From Clytia hemisphaerica (Eukaryota > Cnidaria > Hydrozoa > Leptothecata > Clytiidae): a stretch of 64,000 nucleotides of DNA. The first letter of the stretch is position 1, and each line of letters begins with the position of its first letter. Below, piece after piece: positions 4,829-60,646 of the stretch. The stretch spans positions 1,118,948 to 1,182,947 of the forward strand of contig CACVBU010001307.1 in the NCBI GenBank assembly GCA_902728285.1. Direction: 5' to 3'. Below the pieces are notes generated by a model. That model made no database searches and was not told where the DNA came from. It worked only from the letters and a program-made list of their open reading frames with translations. The translations under genes were made by a program, and so were the position numbers.

Positions 4829-4836
4829 TTGGTGAC

Positions 4837-8800: not shown

Positions 8801-10980
8801 TAAGCATAAGCTCCTGAAAATACTCTTGAAATTTGATTGAAGACAAAATGTCTTGTTTGGTGATTTAAGGAATGGTTAGCTATATAAAATAATTCTGGAC
8901 ATTTGTAATTTACAGGGTTAAGGTTTATATTGAATAAATTATAGCAAAATACCTATTCGTTGAGAACAGTAACTATTTCTAATTTTTCAGGCATATACAA
9001 ATTAACATAAGTATACCTTTCCATGATGGTTTTGGTGTATCACTCTTGCTGGTAGTTTTCTTCAAAGTTGCTGGGACAATTTCAGGTGGGAGGTGGAGGA
9101 AGTCTCTTAAGTATTGAATACCCTCGTTTGTCAAGTAATAATAACCATGTCTCCATGCAAAGTTTTCTCTGACATAACCACGAGATTTCAATGACTAAAA
9201 AGTGGAAAAAGAAAATAAGTCTGCTCTTCTTATCTATACTTGACCAATTGAATTAATTGAACCTTAGAAAGGTTCAACAATGCTGATTTAGCAATATTTC
9301 AGAATTGCTCATGCATGTGCACTGCTAGCCTAACCTGGAGATCCATGCTTTCTTATTCTATATACTGATGGCGAAATATATGCCGTGAAGTCAGGTAACT
9401 TGCATCAGTGGAGGCTAACATGCATAGCCATCAAATGAATGACCTGTCTGGTCCTTAAAATACAAAGTTAAATAAAAACAAAAATGGCAGAGTAGAGCTG
9501 CGAGCGAAGCTGCGTAGTTAATTTGTTTTGAAATTTTGCTGCTTTGATTGGTCAGTCATTTGAGGGCTATGCATGTTAGCCTCCACTGATGCAAGCTACC
9601 CGACTTCACGGTAGATGGTTAGGGTTGAGAGTTTGAATCTCCCAGATCCTTATGACTGTTGAAAACACAGTTAATCAAATTCTGTTATTCTTTTACTGGT
9701 AACACTTTCAGGCTGTTTTTCATGCCCGGTTATCAGACGCTGCCCCTCCTGAAATCACTAAAATTTTGGTAAAAACAGCCTTTTTAGTGGAGAAACACGA
9801 GAAAAAGTGCCCTTTTTTACCACCAACGGACGCTGCCCTGCCTTTCTAAAATATGGCCTGACTTTCATAGAGAAAATGCACGTTCTGAAATTTGGTTTTT
9901 AATTTAGTAGATGAGGACAGCGCCAACTTGGAATTTCCAACTGTAAATTTATCTACCTCACAGCTCGTACCCGTCCTGTCTGATACTAGACAGGTAATCG
10001 TTTGTGCATGTTAGTAAGTGTGACAAAATTAGATAACATTTTTGAACCGAAAAAATAAACTGGATTAAAACACATTTTTCACACATGTGAGGTCACATTC
10101 AGAAACTGCTTTTGACTCAGCACTGAGAATCAAACTTCCAAGGCCGTTCTGTAAAAAAATTGTTTGGTTCCCATCATTGAACTTTGAAAAAGTGGGTCAG
10201 TCAGTTGGTGGTAAAAAAATTCTGTTGTACAAATACCAGGCATGATAACGTGGCTTGTCTTCACACGACATCTTTGTCTTGATTTCCATTCGGTCCAAAA
10301 AATAAAAGCAGGTAAAAATAATCGAGAAATAGCTGTTCGAATTTATTTCAGTTCCCGTGATCAGAGGGTCACAAAAGAATTCTAGCCCAGCAGCAAACCA
10401 GCTTCCTGACCCTTCAACTGCTATTTCTGATTAAAAATTAGGGTTGGTCAGGTGATGGGAACCAAACTAATTTTTACAAACATCAGCCTAACAAAATGAG
10501 GCTTTGTGAGAAAAATCAAATTGTGAACGACTCTCAAGCATGTGATTTCATTCCATCTGCCTTGTACTTCTGTTGTACTACTTGAGAAAAGATTTCCTTT
10601 TCATGTATTTGGCTAACATCTTTTTAAAATTTCAATCCATCCAGGGATTATGTTTTTCAAGTATAGAATTAAAATCCATTATTGTATATGTTGTCTCACT
10701 CCCATCCATAAAAAAAAAGAACCATGTTGTTTATCAAACCAAAATAATGACACATCTTTGCAACTTCTTCTTCTTGATAAATATCAAGATAATGTAGTAG
10801 ACGCTTATTATCTTCCAGCCAATCTGTGAAATTTACCTTCATAGCCATCATAACTTGGACATTTCTGATGGAAGTCAATTCATTGTGACTTGGTTTGTTA
10901 CCATCTTTGATACAAACCATAACTCCATCTCTAAAAAGAGCTTCGTAAATGGCGACACGGTTCTTCTTTGTGATGATCAT
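5838..10980 (-). CDS. RPS10: 40S ribosomal protein S10 (eS10)
   Basis: Small-subunit ribosomal protein eS10, 173 residues. Coding exons on the minus strand are 10837-10980, 9017-9194, 8665-8774 and 5838-5927; all junctions are GT-AG and phases agree. The N-terminus ([20 protein letters not shown]) and the core block [18 protein letters not shown] followed by [14 protein letters not shown] are the conserved winged-helix part. The tail is Arg/Gly-rich ([13 protein letters not shown]) and ends GAPPPS, as in animal eS10 (human is 165 aa). The ATG lies one base after an acceptor (TTTTTCAG-G-ATG), so a non-coding first exon with a 5' UTR intron is expected; I could not place that exon with confidence. 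The last intron (2.7 kb) hosts four H/ACA-like RNAs in sense orientation plus a foldback element at 7696-8595. Confidence 0.96.
6088..6218 (-). ncRNA. Box H/ACA-like snoRNA, copy A
   Basis: It lies in the last intron of RPS10 on the host's strand. Read 5' to 3' on minus: outer stem GCATCTT/AAGATGC, internal pocket, upper stem CCAA-TTCC/GGAA-TTGG, then an H box ATATAA (ANANNA), a second hairpin with base TTTTTA/TAAAAA and upper stem around GTTTATCT/AGGTAGAAC, then ACA three bases before the inferred end. The length is 131 nt. The fold and boxes are seen directly; function as a pseudouridylation guide is inferred from the architecture and the intronic ribosomal-protein location. Confidence 0.72.
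6397..6527 (-). ncRNA. Box H/ACA-like snoRNA, copy B
   Basis: Best-formed copy. The outer stem is 8 bp (TGCATCTT/AAGATGCA) and the upper stem CCAA-TTCC/GGAA-TTGG. The base of the upper stem is 15 nt from the H box ATATGA, the spacing expected for a pseudouridine pocket. The 3' hairpin closes with TTTTTA/TAAAAA, then G, ACA, TTC. The pocket strands of the first hairpin are TTCGTAT and CTCCATC. The RNA target was not identified. Confidence 0.75.
7213..7343 (-). ncRNA. Box H/ACA-like snoRNA, copy C
   Basis: Nearly identical to copy A, with H box ATATAA and ACA at the 3' end. One change falls in the pocket (CTCCGTC instead of CTCCATC), and the 3' hairpin loop also has substitutions. A pocket change could alter or weaken the target match. 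Confidence 0.7.
7515..7645 (-). ncRNA. Diverged H/ACA-like copy D (paralogue or pseudogene)
   Basis: Same length and order as the other copies, with GACATTC at the 3' end. The outer 5' stem is shortened to ATCTT/AAGAT and no ANANNA hinge is obvious. The 3' hairpin tip has changed to a perfect TATATCTA/TAGATATA stem, which looks compensatory. The inner pocket motif CTCCATC is kept. It may be a decaying copy or one with a changed fold. Confidence 0.5.
7696..8595 (+). mobile_element. G-tract foldback element, 7-bp target duplication (family GR1)
   Basis: The ends are CAGGGGGGGGG and CCCCCCCCCTG, flanked by the direct duplication GATCACC (7689-7695 and 8596-8602). A second inverted pair lies inside (TTTTTTATTTTCTGGTTTACGG at 8034-8055, complement at 8396-8420), so the 900-bp element can fold back. 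It is non-coding and sits in the last RPS10 intron. Relatives by ends and duplication length: 25426-26637 and 54373-54967. Confidence 0.82.
9383..9611 (+). mobile_element. MITE-like element with about 60-bp inverted repeats
   Basis: The arms are CCGTGAAGTC...GCATCAGTGGAGGCTAAC at 9383-9444 and the complement at 9550-9611, with few mismatches. The core is about 105 bp and contains a GAGCTGCGAGCGAAGCTGCG block. It is in the first coding intron of RPS10. Confidence 0.8.
9730..9870 (+). repeat. Dispersed repeat, inverted copy at 63660-63790
   Basis: Shared blocks include CCTGAAATCACTAAAATTTT, GGTAAAAACAGCC and CTTTCTAAAATATGGCCTGA. The second copy lies in opposite orientation near the right end of the window. 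No reading frame is kept. It lies in an RPS10 intron. Confidence 0.65.
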
Positions 10981-11945
10981 CCTGAAAAATTAAGGGAATA
11001 TCTGGCGTTATTCTGAGTGTAAGGTTCGGTCAGTTGTGTAAATTTCCATTAATCGAAGGGGTAAAAGCTCTCTGCAGATAAATCGATCAATCTGCAATAC
11101 TTGAAGACAAGTGATCAATTGGATATTTGTAGCTGAAAAATATAAACATACTTCAAGAAGTCGCTTCGAAGCGGGATTTCCTAGTAAAAAGATCGATCGC
11201 GTCTCAAGGTACCATTTTGTTGGCTATTTTACCGAACAAAACAATGGAAAGCAAAGTAGCCATAAAAATATCATAATATTTTGATAAATACTTTCTAAAG
11301 GAGTTTTTTTGTAAAGATCTTATTTTTTGAAATTAAAAAAATTTTAAATTTTTATTTTGAAGTATTTATCTGAGCAAAATTTCTTTTTTTTCTTAACTTT
11401 TCATCTACGTATCAACTATGAATTCATTCCATTGTAAACAATAATTTTCCGGGGGTCAATTGAATAAGGTAAACTCACTATTACGACCTGAATTTGACAA
11501 ACATGCCTTTTTGTATTAACATTATAAAATCAAAATATTATGGTTTTTTAGAAAAATTAGCTTTTTGGTTGTTCGGATTTTATTTTGTAGTTATTTTTAT
11601 TTGAAAAACTATTAAAAATCCCCCTATATAGTTATGCATTTAAAAAAAAGAAGAGAAATCGGCGAAATCAGCGCGAGATCAAAAGTTGGATGGTCGTGGT
11701 TTCTTCACAAAGACGAAAGACAGATCTGGACTTATTTCGTACTTTCCAGTCTCTTGTTCGTAGTTTTTCTGACTTTCTGTTTCTTTGTGAGTTATTTCCT
11801 ATGTTTTCTAACTTACTGAATGACCGACAGATCGCCACCGGTGGGATTCGAACCCTTCGAGCTCCAACTCTAACCCTAACTGATAATAACCCAATTCCTA
11901 GCTAATCTGATACGTAACCACACCCATACCCAACCCTACCAGGTC

Positions 11946-12764: not shown

Positions 12765-13337
12765 CAGTCGGGTGTTTAAGATAAAAACTGCAATTATTGC
12801 TCTTTTCGGAAATTATTGCCGAAAACGGCAATTTTTTTAACGATGAAATGCTGAATCAGCAGAAAAATAAAAAAGTAAATAAATGAAAATTGCCGTTTTC
12901 GGCAATTATTGCCGTTTTTGCAAATAAAAGTTGAACACGTGGTATTTGACACCCTCGCGATAAGTAGGCCCACTGTGCCTCGTTTAGTTTTGTTTTCAAC
13001 TGGTTTTTGTTGGAAATACAGATAGCAAAATCGAGTCATATGTAAACAAATTTACAACGGGGGTTTTGTTATCTCTTTCTGGCTGTCTCTTTTAACTTAT
13101 TATTTTAGAACTTTTCATGTTATTGAGCAACGAAAAATTGAAAAAATCACTTTTAAAAATCCGAAAAACCTTTTTCTCGATGCAATTTTACTATTTTCAA
13201 ACACCTCTGACATCTTTGCCCTTAAAAGGACAACACATTTTGCTGATTCAGCATTTCATCGTTAAAAAAATTGCCGTTTTCGGCAATAATTTCCGAAAAG
13301 AGCAATAATTGCAGTTTTTATCTTAAACACCCGACTG
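12765..13337 (+). mobile_element. Inverted-repeat element with CAGTC ends and ATTGG duplication
   Basis: The arms are about 95 bp (CAGTCGGGTGTTTAAGATAA and its complement). ATTGG flanks both sides. The palindrome TTGCCGTTTTCGGCAA and half-sites of it occur repeatedly in the arms and interior. The arm GATGAAATGCTGAATCAGCA is itself palindromic at its end. Short ORFs across the arms are mirror images and not genes. It shares CAGTC ends and a 5-bp duplication with 45176-45625. Confidence 0.78.
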
Positions 13338-20352: not shown

Positions 20353-23300
20353 ATGCGTTCAACAATATGTGTCTTGTGTTTTATGTTTCTTCGGAAGATT
20401 TTATTAACTTATGCTCAAAATAATGACTATAGTTGCTATGACTTTTTGTATAACCCAAGAGTTTGTTTACCTGGTCCCATTGATATTGCTGAAAATCATG
20501 AAATAAATGTTGATGATAAATATACTTGTGGTACCCCACCAACAAAATATTGCCGTAGTGCTGAGCCTTCAGGTTGTTTTATTTGTAATGCTAGTTCAAC
20601 TATGAACAATCATCCAGTGCGCCACATGACAGACAAAGACTTTCCATTGAATTTTTGGGACTTTGGTTATAAGCCAACTTGGTGGCAATCTATAACTTGG
20701 TGGGATGCTAAGCAAATGAATATTTTGACCGATGGTACACTTAAAATTAACTTGACACTGTCAATGAACAAAAGTTATGATTTGACTGGATCATTCCAGT
20801 TAACCTTTTACTCTAGTAAACCACACGCTTTTGTAATTGAAAGATCCTCTGATTTTGGTAATAGCTGGAAACCTTATCGTTATTACGCTGATCAATGTGC
20901 TTTGAGGTTTCCCAGAATCAAGTTGGAATTTCAAAGAAATGATGAACGGGAAGTGTATTGTATTGAACATCAATCATTAGATGCAGTCCAAGGCAGTCAA
21001 GTGAAGTTCGAACCAAGTTATACAAAAGATAATTTTTGGTCTAAAGATACCCAAGATTATATAACAGCAACGGATTTTCGGATATCATTACAATACCCAT
21101 GGACTGATAACAATGAAAAAATCAATCAAGAATCTTTTTTGAACAAGTATTATTATGACATTACAGATGTTCAAATCCATGGAAGGTGTCATTGTAATGG
21201 GCACGCTCCTTATTGCGATAGTAACAAACAATGTTTTTGTCAGCACAACACAGCTGGTACCGACTGTGAGAAATGCATACCACTTTTCAATAATAAACCA
21301 TGGAAACCAGCTGAAGCTTCAAACAAACCTAATCCATGTGAAGGTACAGTGCTTACTCATATTACAGTTAACTGAAAGGATTCATTGTCTTTTCAAAAAC
21401 GTGTTAAAGTGTTGAATCCAGATCAGGAATCATTTATAACAACTGAGAAATATCAGTCCAAACTTCTCTGTTGAGATTTATCTATGTATTCAATGATTTT
21501 TAGTTTGATGAAAAAAGGAGATTTTTTAACTTTCTTTATTACCCAAAATTTCCCGGCTCCTTTTGGAGATTTGAAATGAAATATTTCTTTCACTTTTTTT
21601 AGCATGTAATTGCAACAACCATGCAGGCAGTTGTCACTACAATGAGACACTTGAACATGGTGTCTGTGATGAATGTAGAAATGGTACAACAGGTTATCAC
21701 TGTGAACGGTGTGATGATTTCCATTACAGAAACATATCATTGCCAATAAATGATGAAAGAGTTTGCATAGGTGAGTATTTTTTGTTGGTAAAATGTAATT
21801 GTCACGTGAGTAAAGGTTCTTTCTTGTAAAATTTGAAATTTTGTAATCCAATCCTACTTTTGGTATTGCATCGAAGTATACTGCTTTTACATGAGAAGGA
21901 GGCATGTTGAAGCAAAGAAAAACCAGTAAAAAATGAGGTTGGTAATGAGAGCAAAAATTACATTAGGTTGTGCTTTAAAAAAACAAATAATTTTAAGCCA
22001 ATTAATTTTGAGAGTTCTAGTTCTAGTTCTAGTTCTCAACTTCAGTTGAGCTAGAATCTGACAATGTCTGTCTGTCTGTCCGTTCGAAAGCTTTGGGGCA
22101 GCCTGGAGACTTTAAAAATTGTTCGATTTGGCTGAGATTTTGCACACTTGTTCCTTGGGTGAATATCTGGGGGCGATTTTTTCATTTTTCAAAAATTTTG
22201 ATTTTTGGGGCCTTGGGGACAAGTTTTTACGCCAAAACGAGGCTAAAACTTGGGGCAGCCTGGAGACTTTAAAAATTGTCAGATTTGGCTTAAATTTGGC
22301 ACACTTATTCCTTTGATGAATATCTGGGGGTCTACAATTGGGCCTATAAATAATTTGAAGCTACTGAAGTTGAGCCCAGTGCGTTGCGCACGTTCGACTA
22401 TTTTATATTTGCATAAGACATAAAATACCTAATCTCGCAAATTCTACGTAAAAATATAAAAATGAAAAGGTTTTTAAAATAGCTAAGATAAAGATATGAA
22501 AGAATTAGAATAGATAGGAATTTATACAATTTTAAATTAGATTTATTAGATTAAAATTCATAAAAGTTTAAAAAAGTTCAAAAATAGTACAGTAATAAAA
22601 AGTGTTAAATCTCAAAGAGATTGAAGCTTTAGTATAATGTGAGCTAGGATGAAATATCTTATGTAAATCTACATTAACTACAAAGCGAATCCTTCTTTGA
22701 TTCTAACAATTAGCTACAATTTCCGGACCTTTTTTTTGAGTATGATGATTGTATTTTTCTTCTTATTTAGCCTGCGATTGTTTTTTACCTGGAACAACTA
22801 ATAATGGAAAATGTTTACAAAACTCAACAATCAATCAAGCTGCTGGACAATGCCCCTGTAAGCCAAATGTGTTTGGAATGAGATGTGATGAGTGTAAAGA
22901 TGGTTATTTTGGATTAAGATTGTCACCTGATGGAAACTGCGAAGGTAATTCTGTCTTTTGAGGCTCTAAATGGAAATAAATTTCAAAGTTCAGTGCATTC
23001 TTTTTGTAATGTCAACAAAACAAAATGAGAAAAATGTTTCAATTTTATTAGTCTGTGTATAGGTCGCAAAATGTATTGGGACAGCTGTCGACTTCATGGT
23101 TCAATCAAGGATTTATTATACACTGGATATACAAGTAACAGATTTTTGCCGATTTCTCGTGTACTAGCTATGTCCGCAGTAATGATATTATTGTTCACTC
23201 TCCTTCCCTCATTAAATGATTTTTCGAAGCATTTTTATTGCATTTCTTATCGAAAATCACTCATCCAATTCCCAAAAGAGACTTAAAACTTTTCTGTGAG

Positions 23301-26300
23301 AATCAGATTCTTCCACTTAATTGATAATAATAAGTCGTTATGACGTTTCAAGCTGTGAGAAAGTTGCAAAAGACGTGTTGTGTATAAGAAATTTAATGTT
23401 GACACCGGAAATTTTCAAACTTCATCCTCAAAAAAACCACCTTGCCACCACGTGCCTCCATAGGGTTTTCATACCACAGTGGAGCCAAGACGCTCAAGTC
23501 TTATGTATGTTTAATTTCAGCTCTTCTGGGGACAGTCTTAGAAAGATATTTCCAATTGAAAATTTTGTGTCACTATAAGCATTTTGTCTGAATTTCTTGT
23601 CTAATGATGTTTTTCTCACATTAGATTTCACAAATGTATCGTATCCGGCTTGGAATACTAGCCTTACTTTAAAAGTTTTTTTTCTACATACAAATGTACA
23701 AAAAGAAAGAGCTAGAGAACTTTTTAAAAATAAGACTGATAAATTTTTTTTAAATCAGACATCTTCGAGCCGCCATGACAGTTGTCCTTTGCGGACAAAG
23801 CTAGAACATCAATTGTTTTCTGAAACAAAGGAAATTCAATGATCGCTCTCCATCGTTTTATGAGTCGTTTATCCAGTGTATAATAAATCTTTGGTTCAAT
23901 TTAGCTAAAGTCGATTACAGCTGATTACAGGTGTTTCTAAGTTATTACCCTTAGTTAAGGGTCCTGGAAACAAGCTTTGAATGGACCTCCAAATAGTTAG
24001 AAAAATACTGAATTTGTGCACGTTTGACTATACATTATACACACTTTGAGAGCAACAATATTATATATTTTTTATTCCCTAGCTTGTAATTGCTCAATTA
24101 ACGGAACCATCCAAGGTGAAACAAACTGTGACCAGAAGACTGGGCAATGTAAATGTAAACCAACCATAAGTGGACGTACTTGCTCACAATGTCAACCTGG
24201 ATATTTCAATTTCCCAGAAACTTTGACTGATGAATGCGAGGGATGTGATTGTAAGATTGGTGGTTCTTACAATGAAACTTGTGACCAAGAGACTGGTATG
24301 TTTCAATACATTCAAAATACTGACATTTTCTTTTAATATTACTATTGAAGATTTCTTTGACTTGTACTTTTTTAGATATTTGGATATTCACGTCATTGGC
24401 TCCTGAGAGAAACTCTTTGCCTGATTTTTGCACAAAATTTCAACCTTTTGTTATTGAGATAGGTATTTCTCTCTATACAAGATAAAAATCAGAAATAATT
24501 TTCTTTCTTAGGATCGTGTTATTGTCGTTTTGGTATTTCTGGTGGTCATTGTGATCAAATAACCAGCGGAATGTATGTGCCATCCTTCAATCATTACATT
24601 CTGGAAGCTGAGCAAGGCGGAGGATCATTCGAGAGAATGTCAGATATTGACGGCTATGGCCAACGCTTCTCTGGATATGGGTATGCTTTGGTCTATGCAT
24701 CTGGCTCGGTTGAATTGACATTCACGCCTGACATGACTAGACTGTAAGTATTGCCACTTGAACTAAGTAAATAAAAACTTTCTCAAACAGCTTCAAGAGT
24801 GGCAACAGTGTGATTTTTATCTATTCTGATAGTAGTAATTTGGACAAGGGACTGTTAATTATAGCTGTTATTCGACGAATCAAGAATACATTTGTGGACA
24901 TTTGATGTCCTTCAATTTTTTCTCTTATGTTCTTTCTTAGATTTCACATCCAGATTCGATACAAAGAACTTGTATATCCACAAAACGTATCCATTGAGTT
25001 ACACTTTTCCAACACTGGATCTACCATCCAGCTAATCTCAACTGCGAACATACTCCAAAGTGGAACGGATAAAATGATACTAGCACAAGTCATATTGGTC
25101 AGTGGTGGAAATTACACATTCAAAATCACCAATATGGACACAAACGATCAATCTATGATGTTAGATTCGTTAGTTCTGCTACCCGATTACAAGGGAGTGG
25201 ATTTACATCGCAATGGTGGGCCATCTGTTGAGCTCATTGCCAACTGCTGGAATAAAAGTTTAAGTTCAATGACTTTTGAGGTGACTGAAGGATGCAAAGA
25301 TGTTGTGTTTTCAACAAATATTGAGATTTATGATGGTTCTCAGGGTAAATAAAAAAAGGTTTCCTAGAGGAATCATCTTTTTGTATAATATGTTAAATAA
25401 AGCTTGAAATTCAGCCAATCAGAGACAGGGGGGGGTCAGGGTCCAGGATACCAACCCAGGGCCCAAAAACCTGACTTTTCAAGATTTGAAAGTAGTAGAC
25501 ACCACCACCCCCTAAATTGGTATCAATACCAACTTGAAAACCCCAATTTTCTAAAAAAGGGGGGACCCACCCCACCTAAATTGGTATCGATACCAACATG
25601 AAAATCTTGATTTTCTGAAAAAGGGGGGACCCACCCCCTAAATTGGTATCGATACGAACTTAAAAATCCCAATTTTTCAAAAAAAAAGGGGGACCACCCC
25701 CCTAAATTGGCAATCAGTAAAAATGCAAGAAGTTTATATGCATAGGATACTAAAGTCTATTCACAATAAGTGTGCACTCTTTCTTCTTTTACCTATAATT
25801 TTTGAAGGAATTCTTCAATCTTTATAAATTTGGTATCATTGGAAAGATATTAGTGAGTGGAACAGTTTGAAATAAAAAATTCTAAAATGAAGATGAAAAT
25901 GAAGATTTTTTAGAAAAGTGCTATAACTATCATTTTCACTGAGGTGAATCCTTGATCATCCAACGTCATCACTGTGAAAAAATTTCTCAAAAATAATCAT
26001 TCAGTCAAAAGATATCAAACAAAGTTATAAGCTGATTGACGCCTAAAAATGCTGTTCTCTGCTCTTTTTTGGGGTCTATCACTTATTTAAACTTTGTGTC
26101 ATAACTTGATATTGAATAAATATTTTAGTAAAATTTCTTCACAATGATGACCTCCTAAGATCAAAGAATCTCTCCAGTTAAAATGAAAGTTATAGCACTT
26201 TTCCAAAAGATCTTCATTTTTTTCTTCTTTATTTTCATATTCGTTTTTGGAATTTTTTTAAAGACTTATTTCAAATTCTTCCACTCACAAATATCTCTCC

Positions 26301-29300
26301 AACGATACCAAATTTATAAAGATTGAAGAATTCCTTCAAATGTTATAGGTAAAAGAAAAAAGAGTGCACACTTATATCCTGAACAGACTTTACTTACATT
26401 ATACAACATTTTAAGTCAGATACCAATTTCAAATTCAACAAAAATTAAAAAAAAAGAGGACCCATCCCCTCATTTTGGTATCGATACCAACTTAAAGATT
26501 CCCTTATTTTCAAAAAAAGGGGGACCCACCCCCTCATTTTGGTATCAATACCAACTTGACTTTTTGAAATTTGAAAAAAAAAATTGACACCACCACCCGG
26601 CCCTGGGTTTGGTATCCAGAATCCTGACCCCCCCCTGTCAGAGACTGTTTACTTTTTGGTTTTTCTTGCAAATAACACGAAGTAAAAAATGAAATTAATT
26701 CAAAATTCTTCTACTCTTCTTTCAATCTTTGCAGGACAAATGATCCTAAATAACTTTAATCAATCATTTACAAATTCTATTAACAAAAGAACGCTCAGGG
26801 GATGCTTACGGCTTTGTTCCAGTACTAGTAGTGAGAATGTATCAATTTAGCTTACCTTCATTCTTTTTTCAAGAATGCAAATGTGATGCTATTGGTTCAT
26901 GGAATAGCACGTGTGAGACGTACGGTGGACAGTGTTATTGTAAAGAAGGTGTGATGGGAAGAAAATGTGATCAATGCATGGCTGGTTACTTCAATTTCAC
27001 CACCAACGGATGCCAAAGTAAGATACAATAGGGTTGGCTTCATCTGGATTATTTAATTTCCCTTCTTCACCTTCTCAAAATTACTCTCGGTTACCTATAA
27101 ACAGTATCACCATAAGTTAATTCAACCCTTGATATTCCTATTCTGACTCCCCCCTTTTTATAAAACTCTGTTTTTAAAGGCTAAAACTAAAAGTATATAC
27201 CTTATTACACGAATATTCTTAGGCAAGTATTCAACGGCCTTGAAATTAACACGCAAAAAAATTAACACAAATTTTATCTGTTTTTTTCAAAGACGGCTGG
27301 TTTTAATTAAGGGGGTTTTTATTAACACGAAATTTTTCAACAATTCGTGTTAATAAAATGACTAGTAATAATTCGTGTAATAAGGTATTACCTAATTGGG
27401 TCTATCTTGCCCATTTTTGGTGATTTTTAGTCGGTCAGTTTTTGAAAATTTGAATAATTTTTACATTATAGAATGTGAATGTGACAGTACAGGATCAACC
27501 GATTTCGCTTGTAATGTTGAAAGTGGACAATGTTCTTGTAAAAAAAATATCATCACTCGTACATGCTCTCAATGTCAAACGAATTACTTCGGTTTTGGAA
27601 CGCTGGAAGGTTGCATAGATTGTGGCTGTAATATGAACGGATCATCCAGTTTACAGTGTCTTGATAATGGGATATGCGTGTGCAAGGAAAGTACACAGGG
27701 CCAAAAATGTGATCGATGTCAAATTAATTATTATGGGTTTTCTGGGACTGGATGCAAGTTAGTAGAAAGTCTTTTTTGCCTCCTCCCTTTTTAAACACTG
27801 ACATAGAAAAAAAGTATAACTTTATATGAAGAAGATGCTATCTTTTCTCATTATAGATCTTATGAATTTTGCGTAGTATGACCCCCCTCATGGTATTGTC
27901 TCTTTTAATATATCCTCATTTCCCTTCTACCCCGCCATCCCCCTTTTTTGGGAAAATTTCCCTTAGCCTTCCTTTTTTGGCGTCCGGAAAGTTTTATTGA
28001 ATGTTTTATTCATTTGTTCTTAGTCGTTGTGGGTGTAATGAAGATGGATCAGTCAGCTTGCAATGTGACCAAGACACTGGTAAATGTCCATGCAAGAGTA
28101 ACGTCATCACCGAGAAATGTTCATCATGTAAACCTGGTTATTTCAACTTGATGAAGGAGAATCACCAAGGCTGTCAGGAATGTTTCTGTTTCAACAAAAC
28201 AGACATATGTAGCTCCGCCTCTGGTTACGAACTCCAACCTATTCCATCTGATTTATTTGACTGGACACAAATTAACGGTGGTAATTTTGAAACATCCGAA
28301 GCTGGAATCACTTTTAACATGACTGGTGGTTATTTTGTGCTTTCAGCTCCACAAGAGTACCTTGGTAATCGACTTTACATTCTACAACAGGAATTAACAC
28401 TGGAATTCAATTTCGATTACCAAACATCGGTATCTGTCAATCGGTCTGTATCCTTGATTCTGATTGGTGGGACTGATCACTTCTTCCTGAGTTACACAAT
28501 CAATAACATTACCAGTGGTGTTGGTCAGAAAGCCAGCGTTCGTATTGATGCAGAAAATACAGACTTAGATTTATGGAAAATCCAAGCAATCCTTGCAGAT
28601 CTTGAATCACTTCAAATTCAGTTTCAAGGAACAAAAGGAGATGTGGGAATTTTTCAAAAATTGACAATGATGAAAGTTGTACCAATTAGGAATGATGCTG
28701 GTGATTTTGGTGGTGTTGAACATTGCCAATGTCCTCAAAATTACACTGGTGTTTCGTGTCAGACCTGCTCTTCAGGTACGGTTTTCATCTTACAATTAAA
28801 GTCAACTCTCTTTAATTCGAACCTCTAATTATTCAAATCTCTCTATAATTCGAACTAAAATGGTCCCCAAGCTGAAAAGTGCTTTAAATCAATCTCTCTA
28901 ATTTCGAATTTTTCTCTGATTCGAAGAAAGTTTTTGATTTCTTCTAGATCAAATTAGAGGAGTCAGTTGTATATACTTTCTTTTCGATTCACGACTGGAA
29001 CTCGTGTTTTCATACGTTGGAATTATGTCCTCTAAACTTTATCAAAGAATTTAACAGTTTTTTTGCTTGAACATAAAACAAACTGAAGTGACTTTTTCCA
29101 AATCTATTGGCTGTTGATGATGTAATGCCATTTACAATCGCCACGACTATTCAATAGTAGCCGGCGATTGAAATGTCATTTAGATTTGGAAAAGTCACTT
29201 CAGATTGTGTTTATGTTCTTGTTATTTCACAAAACTAAAACCAGTTACGAAAATGTATAATTTTATCACAGGCTACACCAGAGAGAAATTAATCACTGGT

Positions 29301-32300
29301 CCATTCGATCGTTGTGTATTATGTTCGTGCAATGCTCGTTCAACAGACTGTAATCCGGAGACTGGCATATGTTCTAATTGTCAACATGGTACGGAAGGTG
29401 ATCATTGTGAGCGTTGCCAACCGAACGTTGAGGAACCGGATTGTGAGCAGTGTTCACCGGGCTTCTATGGGTATAACAATCCAAGTTTTGTTGGTTGCAA
29501 AGGTATATTATTTTTACGAATATCATCTCAACAACGCAGTATGCTTTCTACAAGTCACGCGGTCTAGTTATACTTTTCTTCACTCTCTGTCTGTACTAGT
29601 ATTTGAAATGAGTTAACAAAAATTTGCCCTTGAAATGAGAGTGAAAAGAGGTTATTTTCGACTTTAAATATATTACTTGGACCAGTACATCGCCAATTAA
29701 GTAGTTCACCTAACAGCTAAGATTTTTTCGACCACGCATGGGTCCGGGGAATAGATTTTGCTTCGTAAACAGGCCCTCTTATAAGATCGCTACTTCACTG
29801 AAATTCGTCACATTATACGAGGCAAAACTTGAGGGTATTATGATATGAAATGTAGGTTTGTCAGCCTGCCTGTACATTCTCAACATTGCTTTTTTCAAAC
29901 CAAAATAATTCTGCCTCTGAATAGTTTGTTTCTTATCCATACTGCATACATCAATGGTATAAGTAAGAAGCCTTTAGGTAAAAGAAGCCCCTCTCTGATG
30001 AAAATAAATTCTATTATCCCTCCTCCCTTTATCACGTTCCAGAGACAGTGCATTTTTGACAGTGGAAAGGATAGGTTATATACACAATATATATACTATA
30101 ACACAGTAATGTGAAGTGGCTTTGAGAAAAGGAGCGATGTCTCTTATAAGAAATAGAGAGTTTGTAACATCCTCTTGATAGGGGGGAAATATATAGTACA
30201 CTGATTGATGATATACACTGCCAAGTGACGCACATATTCTAAAAACTTTATCTCATTACTATCTAGTTTTCTAGGTCAAAACCAATTTAAATTTCCACTT
30301 CGTTTTTTTTATTTGTAGCATATCGTTTTTATACATTTGAATTTATCATTGTAGCTTGTGATTGCATTGGTGTGAATACGATTAACAATCGTACAGATGT
30401 GTGCGATCTAACGACGGGACAATGTCCTTGTAAAGAAGATATCGGAGGGCGGAGATGCGATCGTTGCGCTGAAAATGCTGTTAATATCAGTCATGCATGT
30501 ACAGGTAATAAAAAACACCTTTCGTGTTTGTTTTTCCTTTCAAGATCATTTGAAGAATTTTCGAAACGGATTGGTTCAATAGGATGTTTTAGGGTGCGTT
30601 TAATTCAATCAGCGCGCTCTGTTTCGGCAGACTTTTCTAGTATTAACTGAAAGTGCTTTCTAAGTAAGTGTCCCCTATTTTAAAGTGACTGTAGTGCAAA
30701 GATAGAACATTGTGGGTTAAGTCCCAGGCTGTACTCAATACTTCGTACTTAGTACAAAATGTTGATGCCTGTCTCTTCGGTATTCGGTAATGAAGAGAAT
30801 GATTGAGGGTAAGTGGGGGTAATCTAGGGAGAAAGAGTGGTGCTCCCTCCTACTTTTGGTAGATAACTATCGAAAGAGGAGCCTAAGGGTCGACTGCGAC
30901 TGTGGTTGCATAATTACTAATACTCCATGAACTTTTTGTTAGAAAGAGGTATCGCCGTGTTTCTCTCAAAAGCAAATATAGTCACAGAGCCTTTAAAGTT
31001 TTACGATGTTTCTAGTTCACCCAAAACATACAGTATCAATGTTTTTTAAGCTCCTGACTTTTGTTGACAAAAAATAGTAAAAGATAACTCTAGCAAGCTC
31101 TATTTACTCAATATTTTTATACGCGCCTCTATTTGCAGCGTGTTCTCTATGTCACGGCTTGATTCAAGATGAAGTTCATCTCCTCAGACAACAAATCAAG
31201 ACCTTTCAGCTCATGGTCCAAAATGCAACACGGGCTGTTCACCTGGTTTCAAATGACACTTTTCCAGAACTACTCGCTAACCTGTCGTCGACTGTTCTTC
31301 GTATATTATCAGAAGTGAAGTCTACAGCTCAACTGGAACATGAGCTTTATCAGGAGTTTGATAATTTAGGTAAATTTCTATCTTCAGTTTTTGAGACTGA
31401 GCTATTCAAATAGTGGACTTGTGTCAGTTCACCTGATTCACAACATTTTTGAACAAAAGTTAAGGAAAAATCCACTAAAATATTTTTTAAGATTTTTGAG
31501 TGTGTGTCGTAATTTATAACATTTTTGTAGTACTTCATTTTTTAACTTTTTGCGAATTTGATCGGTACTTTTTCCCAAGTCTCGGTACTATTAGGTAGGA
31601 ATTAAAAAAAATATATACGTTTATACTGAGATTATCCTCAATTATGAGTTTTAAAATCCGAATCTTTATTCCATTAGGTGATACGTTGAAGGAACTAGAA
31701 ACGCGATTAGAAATCAACATCACGCAACGTGTCAACATTATTCGTGCCCAATCTTCAAATATCATGACGCATGAAAATCAAACACGTGACACGATGGACA
31801 CTATTCACGATTTCCTATGGTTTAGTGTTTACATAATTAATACTGAATTGACACCTAAGTCTGGCAATGCGTCCATTCTATTGAAACAACTTCAAGACTT
31901 AGCAGATAATTTCACAAGCATTGCCACTAAACGCATTTCATCGTACGCTCCAGTTCTACTCAACATTGACCAGTTATTCAATGCGTCGAATCAAATCTTG
32001 GTCAAGACAGCTGCAATTACCAATATAAGTATGAATATCGACTCCAATCTGACCAATACCAAGTCTGAATTAACCGATTTCAGTAGAGCAGTGTCAGGTC
32101 AACGAATGTTATCTTCAAGCCTTTACAATACATCATTGGAGATTCTAAATCTATCAAAAGATTTGCTGGCGAATATCACCAGAACTGGAGATGAGATTCA
32201 AGACCTCGATGTGAACTCTGCCAAGACGATTCTCAACGATTTGCAAAGTAGGAACGAAACTTTGTATCAGAGTTTATACCGTTTGAAAGATCATCTCCAA

Positions 32301-34931
32301 AACCTTCAAGAGACCTTTACATCATTGATGTTTGATTCTAAAAGATCGTTAAATCATTCCTCAATGGTGTTGAAGAGCGCAAATACAACGGTTAAAGAAA
32401 CTGAAACGCTTCATAAACAAGTTTCTCAAATCAGGTATCAATCTTTATCAATCAAACCAAAGTTGGGTTAAGTTTTAAGAACACCTATGTTCAGTTCTTT
32501 AAGGTCTATCTCTTCGATCCTTTGGAGTCACACACTACGAAAGGCTTAGATATTGGGCTGTTCCATTAAAAATTCTATAGGGGTGGACGAACCTTTTTGA
32601 GTCAAAAAAAGATTCTTGGAAAAAATACCCCCGGGAAAATGGCAAAAACAAAGAAAGTGCTGGAAAATTCATATGACAGTGGACGAGTCAAAATAGTCTT
32701 TTACCACCTGAATATTTTAGAATAACTTTTTATCCCCTGGAAAAATGAAAAAAAACAGTCCTGTACCCCCTGGAAACTCTTCTCAGATTTACCCTCTTGA
32801 AGTATTCCTCCACCCTTTCTGTATGGATAAAAATTGGAAATGGCCAATTACCTAGTCTAGCAAGCTAGACGACTAATTTATACATAGTAGAAATAAAGCA
32901 AAAAGTAATGAATGGAACAATTTTAGTCGTCTAGAAACCTTTGTGCACTAACTCCAAACAAAATAAAAGTGTCAATATTGCAATTATAATTTTTTCCTGC
33001 TCAAAATAATTCTTGAGAAAAAAATATGTGTGGATTTGTGTATTGAAAGTTTTTCATTTGAGTTGATTTCTTTTTGAGAGTTTGTTGTTGTGCTTGATAA
33101 ATTGTTTTCTCGCTAGGCAAGTTTCTGCGTAGCTAGCCCCTGTATCTATAAGGCTGGAACACCGGATTCTTCCAGTCGTTTATACAAACTAAATCCCGTA
33201 TTATTATTATTATTAGTATTGGTATTATTAGTATTACACGCATTATAAACGACTCCAGTCTACCAATTACCCGAAAGTAGTTATATGAATTTTTGAAATA
33301 CTGGACTTTATTTTCGTATCATCTCCACTTCATTGTTTCACAGAGACGGTGTCTTCAATGCATCGAAGGTGTCAAATGCAACATTTAATACAGCGCAACG
33401 TATGTTGGTAGTATTAATGGATTATGAAAATGCTATCATCAACTCGTCACAATCGCTGAAAGATTCAATGGCACAGTTAGATAAGGTACCTTTTTGAAAC
33501 TTTGTTATTAAAATAATATCAAGCATAAGGAAGGCCAATCTTCCCGCACCCTCCTTGTTTGTGATATCCATCTCATAACGCCATATCTTACGGAATCACG
33601 TGTAAAAAATAAGGTTTTCTTCAATTTTGAACACTAAAGCGAATCTAGTGGACTGTTAGCACTTCCTGGCAATACATTTCAAACATGCGGACGTAAGGTA
33701 ACTGAAATACGTAAGCATTCGTGAAAAAAAAACGCCAAGAAAAGCAATGGTGAAGTAAAAAATACAGTAATTTGCATTGTGTACACGAATACACGCTTTT
33801 TTGATACTTTTTTATAGTACTCGGTTTATGAGGCTGATATTTTCGTGATCTTAAAAAGTTTAAATTTTGTTAAATTGTTCTGAATTTTCCACTTGTTGAC
33901 CAATTGGATTAAATTCTCTTTCTTACCTGCTACTGAACACATTCTTTCTCTTTGCAGCTTAACAAGAGCAGTATTGAAACAATCAAATACGTGAAAAGTA
34001 TGAAATTGCAAGTGACAGATATCTTTCGAAACGTTTCAAAAGTTTTCAATAAGAGTACTGATCTACAAAGTAGGACTAATGAACAACGACAGGTATGAAC
34101 CTTTTTAATACCCTAGACTAAGCTATATTCACCATCTTGAGTTTTTAGAAAGTTGGTATTTTTGTAGCACTACTCGTTGTATATTTGTAACATTATTTGA
34201 ATTCATGAAGTTTTTTGTCTGAAAATATTTTGACTACTCATCATCGAATTGGCACCATTAGGGTACCAATTTAGAAAAACTCCGTTCAAAGATTTTGTTT
34301 GGTGGGATCAAGAAACTGTATCCATGGTAATAAGAGTCAATGGTGACAAAGCGTCTTAATTTATATCAAAAGACTTCATGAAAATGCAATACAAATTGTG
34401 TTTGAATATGAAATTCTTCTTTTCTAGGATGCATTAAATGTACTTACTACATTTCGAGATCTAGAGAAGAAGCCTGTTTTCAAAACCAATATGACTGAAA
34501 TCCGAGCTATGTTTCGTAAAATCAACTCCCTCGGTTACGAGGGTTACGCTTTAAGCGTTCGGTGTAACGCAACTTCTAGTCAAGTTCTCAACTTGACTAA
34601 ACAAGTCAAAGATAGTTTGAAATGGGCAAGCGAGGCAAAATCGGACCAATCGAAGCAAGCTGGTGATGTTCGACGTTTGTTTGAAGAGATGGAGAAAATT
34701 GTTGTTTTGAATTCAACCCACGTGACCGAATTAACCAATGAAATCAACCAATCACGTGACGTCTTTCAACAAATGAGTTTAACGCATGCGCTGATGGCTT
34801 TGAGAAAAGCACGTGATGAGCAAAAAATAAAAATTGAATCACAGAGGCAAAGCGTTAAAGAGATGAAAGAAGAAATTAGGCAATTGAGGCAACTCTATGA
34901 GCAAATGAAAAATACAAAAGGATGTGGTTGA
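20353..34931 (+). CDS. Laminin chain with LN, LF-type and L4-type domains and C-terminal coiled coil
   Basis: Basement-membrane laminin subunit, 1837 residues. Coding exons: 20353-21343, 21603-21770, 22771-22944, 24083-24295, 24512-24743, 24941-25344, 26874-27017, 27472-27757, 28024-28775, 29272-29502, 30355-30504, 31139-31369, 31678-32434, 33344-33485, 33958-34092, 34428-34931; phases agree throughout. Order: signal peptide; LN domain (~30-277) with gamma-like TCGTPPTKYC and DITDVQIHGRCHC; LE repeats from 278; laminin IV type B/LF-like domain (~536-727, from MYVPSFNHYILEAE to LVLLPDY); about four LE repeats; laminin IV type A/L4 domain (~940-1105, GGYFVLSAPQEYLG); LE repeats; heptad coiled coil from about 1250 (ACSLCHGLIQDEV) to KGCG-stop. 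No LG domains follow, and no beta-type disulfide knob is seen in the coil. The start is the first ATG; an ATG at 20331 is closed by a stop. LF plus L4 on one non-alpha chain is atypical. Chain class is inference: a gamma-like or ancestral beta/gamma chain, or an alpha-like chain lacking LG domains. Confidence 0.93.
22020..22405 (-). repeat. 155-bp-repeat family element in laminin intron 2
   Basis: Reversed copy of the element at 3388-5440, with about one and a half units. It keeps both outer ends: the CAACTTCAGTTGAGCTAGAA palindrome with the GTCTGTCTGTCC tail on one side, and GTGCGTTGCGCACGTTCGAC on the other. This defines the unexpanded element. Confidence 0.75.
23060..23930 (+). mobile_element. 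Imperfect foldback element in laminin intron 3
   Basis: GGTTCAATCAAGGATTTATT followed by ATACACTGGATA (about 23089-23120) is mirrored by ATCCAGTGTATAATAAATC followed by TTGGTTCAAT (about 23871-23904). Outer CAGCTGT and TACAGCTGA blocks also mirror. Frames of 70-85 residues across it are not linked to laminin splice sites. Confidence 0.55.
25426..26637 (+). mobile_element. 1.2-kb foldback element with TTGGTATCGATACCAA array (family GR1)
   Basis: It lies in laminin intron 6. The ends are CAGGGGGGGGTCAGGGTCC and the near-complement; TCAGAGA is duplicated at 25419-25425 and 26638-26644. Arms of about 500 bp pair almost end to end, with the turn near 26030. Each arm carries two or three copies of the palindrome TTGGTATCGATACCAA set between GGGGGACCCACCCCC spacers. 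It is non-coding; transcribed with the gene it would form a very long hairpin. Confidence 0.85.
28800..28975 (+). repeat. Short inverted-repeat element with TTCGAA motifs in laminin intron 9
   Basis: AGTCAACTCTCTTTAATTCG on the left is mirrored by TTAGAGGAGTCAGTTG on the right. TAATTCGAAC-like motifs recur in between. It resembles the CAGTTGACGCTC family at 38927-39135 and 46508-46684. Confidence 0.55.
29069..29218 (+). mobile_element. 150-bp MITE in laminin intron 9
   Basis: Inverted repeats of about 37 bp, GAACATAAAACAAACTGAAG continuing through TGACTTTTTCCAAATCT, and the complement at 29182-29218. The small core includes TTCAATAGTAGCCGGCGATT. Confidence 0.8.
32555..32846 (+). mobile_element. 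GGGCTGTTCC-type element in laminin intron 13
   Basis: The left end is GGGCTGTTCCATTAAAAATT preceded by ATT. The right end is degenerate (GGAAATGGCC) and followed by AATT. The interior carries spaced CCCCTGGAAA/CCCCCGGGAAA motifs. It is a relative of 50597-50918 and, more distantly, 4878-5140. Confidence 0.65.
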
Positions 34932-37659: not shown

Positions 37660-38142
37660 ATTTTTAGATAAAGATTTTAATGTTTTAAGTTATATAAATA
37701 TACAAATAAATTTTAAAACAATACAAATGGAAATGATTAAGATAAGGTTTCTAAGACTTTTGAATAAAAGAACAATTATAAAAAAAGACAAAGAGTTGAT
37801 TAGATTTCAAAATTTGTTTGGAATATTAATTAAAAGAAAAATGGGAATTTCCATTTGGTCTAAAATAAGATTAATTGGACTCGGTGGGTACTAAATTTGA
37901 CTCTTGATTTCGAAAACTAAGGTTTGGATACTTGGAAATACTCCTCACACTCTCTTACGCTATCACCACAAAGGTCTTTGAAGACGAATGGCCAATTTTC
38001 TCTGTTCTTCTAATATTGAAAAAGGCATTCGAAAACGGTTGACCCGAATACTTCAGTCAAATGCCGATCAGAAAGTAACATCCTTAGTCGGTATCAGTAT
38101 AAGAGGTTTTAGTTCAACATCGACCTGCAGCATAGTCAGCAT

Positions 38143-40969
38143 TTAGACACTTGAGTTTGAAGTGCTTTTGATTTTCATATGAACAGTTGGCATAGGTTGT
38201 GCTTTGTCTTTGGGTTTTTCTTCACCAAGTTTGAAAATGTATTTGTAAGACAAAGACGCACATAATGCTCCTACCAATGGACCGACCCAGTAAACCTGTC
38301 AAAGAAAGATAGGAATGAGTAAATCTTCTTAACTGAGGGAGTTTATAGAAGTACCTGTACCATAATTGGAGATGGCACGATTTCAATTAACGTTTTATTT
38401 GGAAACAATGCCCTGGGAGAATCTTTCTTTGTGAATTAGGATCGTATTTAGATTTAGAACGCCATATGGATCCTATAGTTTCTTCGATGAAGTCCATTTT
38501 ATGTGGGTAGCCCGGTACTACTAGAGTTTTTGAAAGTCTCTCGATGTTTTTTAACTGGTTAACGTGTTCAAAAGCCTTACCCAGTGTTCGTGGACAAGGT
38601 TTCCAGTAACAGCTGCAGGTCCAAAAGCACGAATAGGATTGACTCCAGCACCAGTGAATGGCATCTAAAAGATATTTATCAAGTGTTTGGTTACGCAAGG
38701 GAGATTTTAAATAGTTTCATACAATAGTTACTTCTTAAGAGATCCCTGTAGCTTATAGTGCGTCTCGTGGAAAAGGCATTGTTTAGTAATACAGTATTGC
38801 TTGAAATCAAAATCGTTTTCCTGGCAGCATCAAAATTTTGTGTTCCAGTCTCAAGAAGAGCATACGTATAACTTTCGATTATGGTTTCTACAATCTTTGA
38901 CTTTTGAACTCTAAGCTGTGGTAGTATAGTTGACGCTCTCTAATTTGATATTCAAGGGGAATAAGGGAGCTTTATCGAATAAGGAAGCTTTATCGAATAA
39001 GGGAGCATCGTTTATGAGAGTTTCTTGTTGACGGGGTCTTTCAATTCCATTGAATAGGGGAGCCTGTCGAATAGTAGAACGTCAAATAAGAGAGCCTATC
39101 GAATAGTAGAACGTCGAATTAGAGAGCGTCAACTGTATGTTTATCCACTTACTCCCATCAACATTGCGACTGCTACAGATAGACCAACGACCATGTTCGA
39201 TTGTAACAAAGAGAATTGGTTGTCAGGATCTCTTGCTGCAATGATAACTAACATGACAATGAAAGTTAAAGTGAGTTCGACCACGAATGCAACTCCAACT
39301 AACAGATCATCGTGAATGGATAATGTTCCAAGATGACCACGGACATTGGATGGTGTGTAGAGATAAAGAAGACCAGCTCCGGCACAACCTGGTAGAACAG
39401 GGTAGAAAATAGATATCGATCAAAGTTAGTTTATACACCTATTAACCCTAGAAAGAGTGTGGAGACTTAAGTCTTGCTCAAAAATTGTCCAAACCTTGAA
39501 AAAGATAATCATTTAGGTTTTAAGATTAATTTTCTGAGTCAGCACAAAACGATATTTTAGCCGAGTTAGCAATGCCATTGAGACCATATAGTACGTTTCA
39601 ATGCCAATCTTTTGATTCTAGTTTAAAAATGTAAAAATTATATTGGGTAGTTGATGACTACATCACGAAATAGTTTGGGTCATTTCGGACCCCTTTCGGG
39701 ATTTAATTCCCGGGGACAAATTTTGAAAAGCGACACTATTTTTGTTATCTACTTTTCATGATCTTTAAGATAAACCTCATTATTGACTTTGCACGGTTGC
39801 ACGTATAAACTTGAAAAGGCGAAAATTTAAACTTAAATTTCTTTACATTTTTTCCAGGCCTGATCAAGTTATCAAACGTCTTTTGGAAGGTTTAAATTGG
39901 TTGTAAAAATTCATGAATCAACATGTCCGTGTATACATGCCAAGACCTCTTTTTGACATTCAATCACAATAATACCAAGTAAGTTTTAGTGTATTTTGTT
40001 GCTACAAAATATGATCCTTATTCATTTAAAGTCAGATTGATGTAAGATCTATGAAATTTGAGACCGCTTTCCCTTGCGATAGATATCTACAGGAGTCACT
40101 CCGGCTAAGGAACAAACCCACAATCTCGCGCACCGTAACCAAATCTCTTTGCAGAAGGACTTTGTAGGTCCTATGCTATTTCAGGTGCCACTATGATAAT
40201 TGAATGATGTATTATAGTGACGACGGAAGAGTTTTTGAATATTAGCTCCTCTTTTGCCTAAAGTAAGTATTTTTTTTAAAATAAAACATCACTTAATTAG
40301 TAGATTTTCATTTTGCTCTGTAAAAAGTGATCAGACTAGCCCGTAGTAGTGAAACCATCACCCGAGACAACCCTGCAAACCCACCCCTCCTGTAGTTATT
40401 CTGAAAAAATGGTACCTGTATAGCTCCTTGAAATAAGAGCAATCAGTTGTCCACAGATCAACAGTAGTTTGAACTTAAGTTTGTAAAGTTTGTTGTCAAA
40501 TACAAAGCCTGGTCTCCTAAAACATTGGTGAAAATCTAAATTCTCAAAAGGGAATGATATACTTACTGCCAGCGACTTGAACAGCAGCGTAAACAAAAAA
40601 TCGAACGAATTTAATTTCACCGGCAACCAACAACCCAAATGACAAGGCTGGGTTAAAATATCCCAATTTCTCAGCTGAAACTGTAATCAAAACAGCCACA
40701 ATCCCTCCAACGCAAACGGCTTGGTGTAAATCAGACCTTGGTTCTCCCAAGTTAAGACTACATCCACACGCAATAATTGTAAATATTAACGTGTAAATGA
40801 ATTCAGCAAAAACGTATCGCCAGAAATTTGGTTCTGTTGGCTCGTAAAGCCCGATTTTGTCTCGCCATGTTTCGCCGCGTGCTTTCACAAGCAAAACGGT
40901 TCTCTCGCTTGGTGTGGAGACATAAGTCTCGTAAGTCGATACTTTAGACTCGCCTTCTTCTCCAGACAT
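38143..40969 (-). CDS. Aquaporin (MIP family channel) with NPA and NPI motifs
   Basis: Six-helix membrane channel for water or small neutral solutes, 291 residues. Minus-strand exons are 40567-40969, 39153-39388, 38581-38664 and 38143-38295; GT-AG sites and phases all agree. The first half has FWRYVFAEFIYTLIF and the pore motif GYFNPALSFG. The second half has GVAFVVELTLTFIVMLV, GLSVAVAMLMG and the second pore motif TGAGVNPIRAFGPA. The alanine of the second NPA is isoleucine, while the pore arginine after it is kept. Aligned without gaps to vertebrate aquaporins, the usual filter histidine falls on a methionine in VAMLM, so permeability may differ from a strict water channel (inference). The tail is Lys/Ser-rich. 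An in-frame ATG at 40990 would add seven residues; MSGEEGES was preferred as a typical cytosolic N-terminus. Confidence 0.93.
38927..39135 (+). mobile_element. TA-flanked element with AGTTGACGCTC ends, aquaporin intron
   Basis: The ends are TAGTTGACGCTCTCTAAT and ATTAGAGAGCGTCAACTG, both next to TA, which suits Tc1/mariner-pogo type insertion. The interior repeats TCGAATAAGGGAGC and TCGAATAGTAGAACGTC. It is the same family as 46508-46684. Confidence 0.75.
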
Positions 40970-41785
40970 ATTTATTGAATTTGTTAACAAAATCTTTCAA
41001 TACCACCTTTCGCTAAAAGCGTTTACCTTGACAAGTCAGAAAAGAAGGATTGAATCGCCAAATCATTTAATTAAGCCACTACCCCTTTTTTAATGAATCT
41101 AGACCCCAGTCCCCCTTCTTTCTATTTTTGCAAGCACACCAGCGAACTCTAAAATAAATACTAGAATCTCATAAAGGATTGATTCTGCTAGACTATCGAT
41201 ATGAAAAACGAAATATTAGGTTTCTTTTGATTTGAAAAGATTGCGTGTAGGTTGAAAATAGTATTATGAAATTTAGCCTGAAATGCTCATTAGGCTTTTT
41301 CACGACCTTTACTGGTGTAAATTTAATATGGTTTCTTTGTCCATTCCAGTTCTTAAAGTTTGAGTTCAGTATTGTACACGTAGCTGATGAACTCATCGTT
41401 CAAATTGTTCAATTAGAGGTTAGGATAAACAAATAACATGTTGTGTTGTTTACTTTCAAAATTCGAAAGTTTTGATGTCGTATAATATTGTAAAGAAGAT
41501 ATACACTGTTGTCAAAAAATATTGACTCTCTTTTAGTTTTCTTTTACTATCGGTTTTATTTTCTAAATGACGGATATAGGCTTTCCGTTTTTAGAGCTTA
41601 AACCTCGCATAGATCATCTCGTTTTTATCGGAAGAACCCCTTTAGAATGTACACTTGACCTACATTCTAAACTCCTCGAGAGAAAAAAAAACTAGGAGTG
41701 ACACAGTATCTTATTAGTTAAATTCTGTTACTATTTTATGCGAGCTATATTTTCATATCGAAATCGATAACGTTGAAAGATAGTT

Positions 41786-47065: not shown

Positions 47066-60646
<13,581 letters not shown>

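Follow-up and report, generated by a model that had tools for sequence, protein, structure and literature searches.

The 64,000-base window of Clytia hemisphaerica DNA analysed here carries on its + strand a laminin chain gene (20353..34931). The coding sequence, rebuilt from the window sequence, consists of 16 exons joined in one frame of 5,514 nt, encoding 1,837 residues and containing a single, terminal stop. Exons 1-8 lie at 20353-21343, 21603-21770, 22771-22944, 24083-24295, 24512-24743, 24941-25344, 26874-27017 and 27472-27757, and exons 9-16 at 28024-28775, 29272-29502, 30355-30504, 31139-31369, 31678-32434, 33344-33485, 33958-34092 and 34428-34931. GT-AG boundaries are found at all 15 introns, whose lengths range from 197 to 1,529 bases. 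Ten of the 15 junctions are phase 1, three are phase 2 and two are phase 0. Eight introns are located at the ends of LE modules, seven of them in phase 1. The initial annotation had proposed 16 phase-consistent exons ending at 20353 and 34931, and this model was reproduced exactly.

The encoded chain starts with a probable signal peptide (residues 1-21; 20353..20415, +), seen on reading the sequence as a hydrophobic N-terminus with R-K at residues 14-15. The domains follow in the order LN, LE1-4, a six-Cys LE5, LF, LE6-9, LE10 split by L4, LE11-12, CxxC, coiled coil and a penultimate Cys. The earlier placement of LN, an LE array, two IV domains, a coiled coil and a final Cys in one frame was confirmed in this order by the rebuilt coding sequence and Pfam.

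The intron directly after LF is 1,529 bases long and contains a foldback element (25766-26375) with arms at 25766-25875 and 26266-26375 that are 93% complementary. A second arm pair inside the element is 78% complementary, and 64-base tandem repeats flank it at 25508-25710 and 26447-26582. An extra short exon near 26736 in this intron was considered and dropped, because joining 25344 directly to 26874 alone restores the LF-LE6 join.

Neighbouring genes and repeats

The neighbours on the - strand are ribosomal protein S10 pieces (8982-10989; two ORFs matching S10_plectin, E 2e-22 and 6.6e-12) and an aquaporin-like gene (39144-40996; MIP in two pieces, E 3.4e-9 and 8e-13). On the + strand, trefoil (47437-47727) and GH31 pieces (52139-52378, and 52845-53108 slightly under the cut-off) were matched, and because of these matches the ORFs at 47437-53108 are probably an alpha-glucosidase gene. 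With different genes around it and no LamG match in 9 of the 10 downstream ORFs considered (see below), the laminin gene thus appears to be complete. No domain match was obtained for the ORF at 58038-58265.

Several repeats are present in the window. A tandem array with a 124-base unit (about 7 copies) occupies 1807-2682. A 156-base repeat forms an array of about 5 copies at 4049-4830 and has inverted copies in laminin intron 2 (22087-22331); a 28-base stretch of this dispersed repeat gave 0 matches in the viral contig and genome contig collections. An inverted repeat at 12765-13337, with 100-base arms (99% complementary) and 373 bases between them, looks like a young MITE-like element. Scans of the window with Rfam (gathering threshold) and for tRNA were empty.

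LN domain and LE repeats

The LN domain (residues 26-278; 20428..21186, +) is gamma/netrin-1-like by Pfam and PDB sequence comparison. It scored 145.9 bits in the Pfam search of the whole protein (cut-off 25.9). When LN alone was compared with PDB sequences, laminin gamma1 was the best of the 21 listed, with 99.7 bits. Among the same 21, the netrins scored 95.0 (netrin-1), 94.7 (netrin-G1), 58.0 (unc-6) and 45.2 bits (netrin-4), and the other laminin chains 61.3 (beta1) and 38.2 bits (alpha5). The margin of gamma1 is small over netrin-1 and large over beta1 (38.4 bits). With a query of LN plus LE repeats, beta1 (4aqs, 232.3 bits) was at the top of the 27 PDB sequences listed and gamma1 (4aqt) scored 185.2, but these scores are not length-matched, since the 4aqs chain spans more LE repeats than 4aqt. 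Against the LN-LE1 chains of 8dmk, the LN plus LE query scored 155.6 bits with gamma1, 106.5 with beta1 and 57.1 with alpha1.

Among the three crystallised laminin LN types, only gamma1 is described as having a calcium site, with the side chains of Asp106 and Thr114 as ligands (PMC3409155). D94 and T109 of the window LN align with these two residues, in a gamma1 numbering derived from the crystal construct, APLA plus residues 34-395 (PMC3409155). The calcium loop is 7 residues longer in the window chain than in gamma1, so that the match of D94 to Asp106 falls in a weakly aligned stretch. An equivalent site is present in netrins G1 and G2 (PMC3409155), and the site is thus not exclusive to gamma chains. 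The description of the LN as gamma-like holds, with gamma1 as best match and both calcium side-chain ligands aligned, netrin-1 being close behind. Relatives of the LN exon protein were sought in two contig collections; 8 and 2 peptide-pattern matches were obtained, of which 0 were confirmed.

Pfam detected EGF_laminin in 13 stretches of the whole protein. LE1-LE4 (residues 279-498; 21187..24243, +) have 8 Cys each by Pfam and Cys count. The truncated LE5 (residues 499-535; 24244..24570, +) has 6 Cys and is without the 7-8 pair, comparable to beta2 LE5, which is described as lacking this pair ahead of LF (PMC5338690). LE6-LE9 (residues 729-923; 26876..28180, +) again have 8 Cys each by Pfam and Cys count. 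By Cys count, LE10 (28181..29321, +) is divided into 3+5 Cys around the L4 insert and is followed by the atypical LE11 (10 Cys) and by LE12 (8 Cys; 29322..31140 for both, +). Cys counts of the LE repeats are preserved across introns, LE11 being the exception; it has 10 Cys against the usual 8 and an extra PNVEEPDCEQC stretch (29322-30356). Two patterns for the nidogen-binding motif of the gamma1 LE8 loop were run on the window chain and gave no match.

LF domain

The first IV domain (residues 536-728; 24571..26875, +) is encoded by parts of exons 24512-24743 and 24941-25344 plus the two opening bases of exon 26874-27017. In the whole protein, LF was scored by Pfam at 18.1 bits, against a curated cut-off of 27. 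When the region was scanned alone, only LF was matched (24.4 bits, E 2.2e-5, 2.6 bits under the Pfam cut-off), and no L4 match was found in it up to E 10. Of the 210 profile positions, the LF match takes in 111-208 and hence concerns the second half of the domain.

Comparison of the region with PDB sequences gave 5lf2, the laminin beta2 LE5-LF-LE6 structure, with a whole-chain E of 1.4e-6 in two co-linear pieces. The pieces are individually weak (13.0 bits with E 0.45, and 12.4 bits with E 0.68); the first begins in LE5 and the second crosses the LF-LE6 join. Two unrelated PDB matches of the region (E 0.48 and 0.7) were treated as chance. The LF-LE6 join itself is seamless, IYDGSQ-ECKCDAIGS being aligned with beta2 VYNGALPCQCDPQGS.

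In the beta2 LF crystal, Glu573, Glu575 and Asp719 are the calcium side-chain ligands, Cys752-Cys768 is the helical disulphide and Cys657-Cys685 the sandwich disulphide (PMC5338690). In the 5lf2 alignment, E547, E549 and D668 of the window chain face the three ligands, a correspondence that covers side-chain ligands only and was obtained from the alignment and by counting printed residues. C695-C711 (spacing 16) faces the helical Cys752-Cys768 (spacing 16). Among the beta2 residues in contact with LE5, Ser774 and Gly782 are matched and Ser776 faces Asn; only the second position of the beta2 aromatic pair Tyr562-Phe563 is aromatic in the window chain. The sandwich disulphide is absent, with 0 Cys between residues 529 and 695. 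When the LF region was shuffled 20,000 times, the residue pattern E.E..D..C15C turned up in 3 of the shuffles. It also has a second match in the chain at residues 198-401, outside LF, and is a loose control only.

These results agree with the annotated LF type of the first IV domain through the LF-only Pfam match, the calcium ligands, the helical spacing and the truncated LE5, even with a score below the cut-off and the sandwich disulphide missing. It had been suggested to check whether this domain would score as L4 instead; LF was matched, with zero L4 matches up to E 10.

L4 domain

The second IV domain (residues 936-1104; 28217..28723, +) lies within one exon, inside LE10. It was matched by Pfam as Laminin_B/L4 with 24.1 bits in the whole protein (cut-off 22.4). 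In the isolated region, searched for matches up to E 10, L4 was the sole match (29.9 bits with E 5.6e-7, over positions 2-107 of the 136 in the profile). The L4 type given in the annotation is thus borne out above the Pfam cut-off in both searches. In the comparison with PDB sequences, perlecan 9i5b was matched with E 4.6e-19; this match supports mainly the LE part, because what 9i5b spans is the last part of L4 together with the next LE. No laminin L4 structure was found among the 13 PDB sequences listed for this region.

Coiled coil and C-terminus

By the Cys list, a CxxC (C1250 and C1253; 31141..31152, +) is placed at the head of the coil. The coiled coil proper (residues 1254-1835; 31153..34922, +) was delimited by heptad periodicity and the Cys list. 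The power at the heptad period (3.5 residues) is 1.65 over 575 coil residues, against 0.35 +/- 0.11 in shuffled sequences, and 0 of 500 shuffles reach 1.65. No PDB match for the isolated coil was found up to E 10, and the coil gave no beta/gamma typing. The coil also had Pfam matches below threshold, among them Laminin_I (15.1 bits, cut-off 34.6, over a 182-residue part), Caprin-1 and bZIP, and these were discarded.

The beta-knob in the coil of beta chains is Cys-rich. Between C1253 and C1836 the window chain has one Cys only (1716), and it is therefore without a Cys-rich beta-knob. The translation ends in Cys-Gly-stop (34923..34931, +); the last Cys is residue 1836 of 1837 and the chain end reads KGCG, so that there is no Glu after the last Cys and the C-terminal Glu of gamma type is absent. 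The gamma1 C-terminal Glu is required for alpha3, alpha6 and alpha7 integrins (PMC6238537). The gamma3 chain is likewise without this Glu, according to a title in the reference list of PMC6238537.

Ten + strand ORFs of at least 50 aa are listed between 34932 and 38400; LamG was searched in nine of them (all except ORF 37982-38143), with no match up to E 1. The chain had been described as being without LG. The + strand stop at 34931 and the 9 of 10 downstream ORFs to 38400 without LamG agree with this description within that range.

Discussion

One laminin gene with a gamma-type LN, an LF and an L4 is confirmed at this locus. Its product, a large protein of the basement membrane, thus unites features that vertebrates divide between two chains. 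The marks of a laminin chain are present, namely LN followed by LE repeats and a C-terminal coil with Cys at head and tail. An LG after the coil, as in alpha chains, was not found within the ORFs scanned to 38400. From the beta-chain set, LF occurs between LE5 and LE6 (with a Pfam score under the cut-off), while the beta-knob and the lack of L4 do not apply. From the gamma-chain set, the gamma-type LN with its calcium site occurs, while L4 without LF and the C-terminal Glu do not. The mixed composition described in the initial annotation is upheld in its parts (gamma-like LN, LF, L4, no LG found), with LF scoring under the Pfam cut-off, but it is less new than the vertebrate baseline suggested.

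A further chain type common to Amphimedon, Nematostella and a sea urchin is reportedly described in the abstract of Fahey & Degnan 2012. Beta/gamma-like ('chimeric') laminin chains are described for Oopsacas minuta and Amphimedon queenslandica in passages of PMC10280926, where the beta/gamma-like chain is set apart from alpha-like chains and from a gamma-like chain that has one LamIVA. These passages, which cite Fahey & Degnan 2012 and Whittaker 2006, are the only description of a beta/gamma chain in the literature surveyed. The chain type is thus not new, being already described in sponges (PMC10280926). In our own reading of PMC10280926 and of the 2012 abstract, the beta/gamma type has IV-B and IV-A in one chain, and by Pfam domains of both types are present in the window chain. 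In contrast, Porifera including Amphimedon are credited with orthologues of the alpha, beta and gamma subunits in part of PMC4582122. The split between alpha and beta/gamma is placed before the beta-gamma split (PMC9788559).

We consider it very probable that the locus holds an intact gene whose product is a secreted laminin chain of the beta/gamma-like type that sponges have, the assignment to this type following the published text description of the sponge chains. A lineage-specific hybrid made by exon shuffling, in which a gamma chain gained LF or a beta chain gained L4 and a gamma LN independently of the sponge type, would account for a gamma-type LN alongside a beta-type LF insertion, and the phase 1 introns at 7 of 8 LE ends would permit such module shuffling. 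However, LF occupies the position that it has in beta2, where it follows an LE5 lacking the 7-8 pair. An independent origin is also unneeded, because chains of such mixed type have been reported in a demosponge and in a glass sponge (PMC10280926), and we regard the shuffled hybrid as unlikely.

In the gene model, built from genomic sequence, LF is directly followed by the intron of 1,529 bases that contains the foldback repeat. At this point two genes, one with LN-LE-LF and one with L4 and the coil, or alternative transcripts, could have been merged. Such a merger is highly improbable given the seamless LF-LE6 join compared with beta2, the open frame, and the LE Cys counts kept over the LF-LE6 and later LE junctions (LE11 being odd). 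The LF score under the Pfam cut-off, the missing sandwich disulphide and the fold common to LF and L4 (PMC5338690) would all suit a gamma chain of the usual kind in which the first IV domain had diverged strongly from other L4 domains. The region is nevertheless without an L4 match up to E 10 and has an LF match at E 2.2e-5, and LF is also indicated by the three side-chain calcium ligands, by the spacing of the helical disulphide and by the truncated LE5; this reading is extremely improbable.

For the preferred beta/gamma-like chain, gene structure, domain identities, site residues and heptad periodicity are direct results, and a role can be proposed from known laminin biology, in which the coil serves trimer formation, LN the polymer node and LE the spacer rod (PMC6744579; PMC5338690), LF and L4 being peripheral inserts of unknown function in the same sources. 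The window chain would be secreted and is most likely a non-alpha subunit of a laminin heterotrimer. Its coil would pair with those of an alpha chain and a second non-alpha chain, and disulphides from the CxxC at the head and from the penultimate Cys would hold the three together. The LE array would give the short arm its rod-like form, LF and L4 being inserted peripherally, and the gamma-type LN that forms the tip may join a calcium-dependent polymer node. As the chain lacks the gamma-type Glu at its C-terminus, the integrin contact known for gamma1/gamma2 chains would not come from this subunit.

It can also be asked whether the window chain keeps the ancestral layout of both canonical chains, as a surviving intermediate of the beta/gamma split. 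We hold this only tentatively and think it rather doubtful. Were it true, a beta-like short arm would result from losing L4, and the gamma layout, LN-LE1-4-(LE5 with L4)-LE, from a single deletion that starts inside LE5, ends inside LE10 and removes LF; the position of the gamma1 L4 in LE5 is inferred from the equation of LEb2-4 with LE7-9 (PMC6744579; PMC3409155). Gamma LN chemistry would then already have existed alongside a beta-type LF. Laminins found the basement membrane, and for the origin of their three specialised chains a complete beta/gamma gene offers exon phases, LE counts and site residues with which descent of beta and gamma chains by loss from one two-insert chain can be tested against later shuffling; for a wider reader, it is one more case of a reported chain type. 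What is worth keeping is a gamma-type LN with a beta-type LF insertion, without beta-knob cysteines and without the gamma C-terminal Glu.

Among known systems, netrin-1 and netrin-G have an LN nearly as similar to that of the window chain as gamma1 (95.0 and 94.7 bits), with the calcium site of G1/G2. Netrins are not known to have LF or L4. Unlike the window chain, they are described as missing the coiled coil along with most of what makes up the C-terminal part of laminins (PMC9788559). Laminin beta1/beta2 resemble it in an LF after an LE5 without the 7-8 disulphide, in the calcium ligands and in the helical disulphide spacing. They differ from it in that the window LN scores 38.4 bits less with beta1 than it does with gamma1, and in that the window chain has L4 and is without beta-knob cysteines and the LF sandwich disulphide. 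Laminin gamma1 is the best LN match and shares with the window chain both calcium side-chain ligands, an L4 inside an LE and, as far as found, no LG, whereas the window chain has LF, no Glu after the last Cys and no nidogen-motif match. The sponge beta/gamma-like chains are likened to the window chain by their published description, in which beta and gamma characters are mixed in one chain as they are here.
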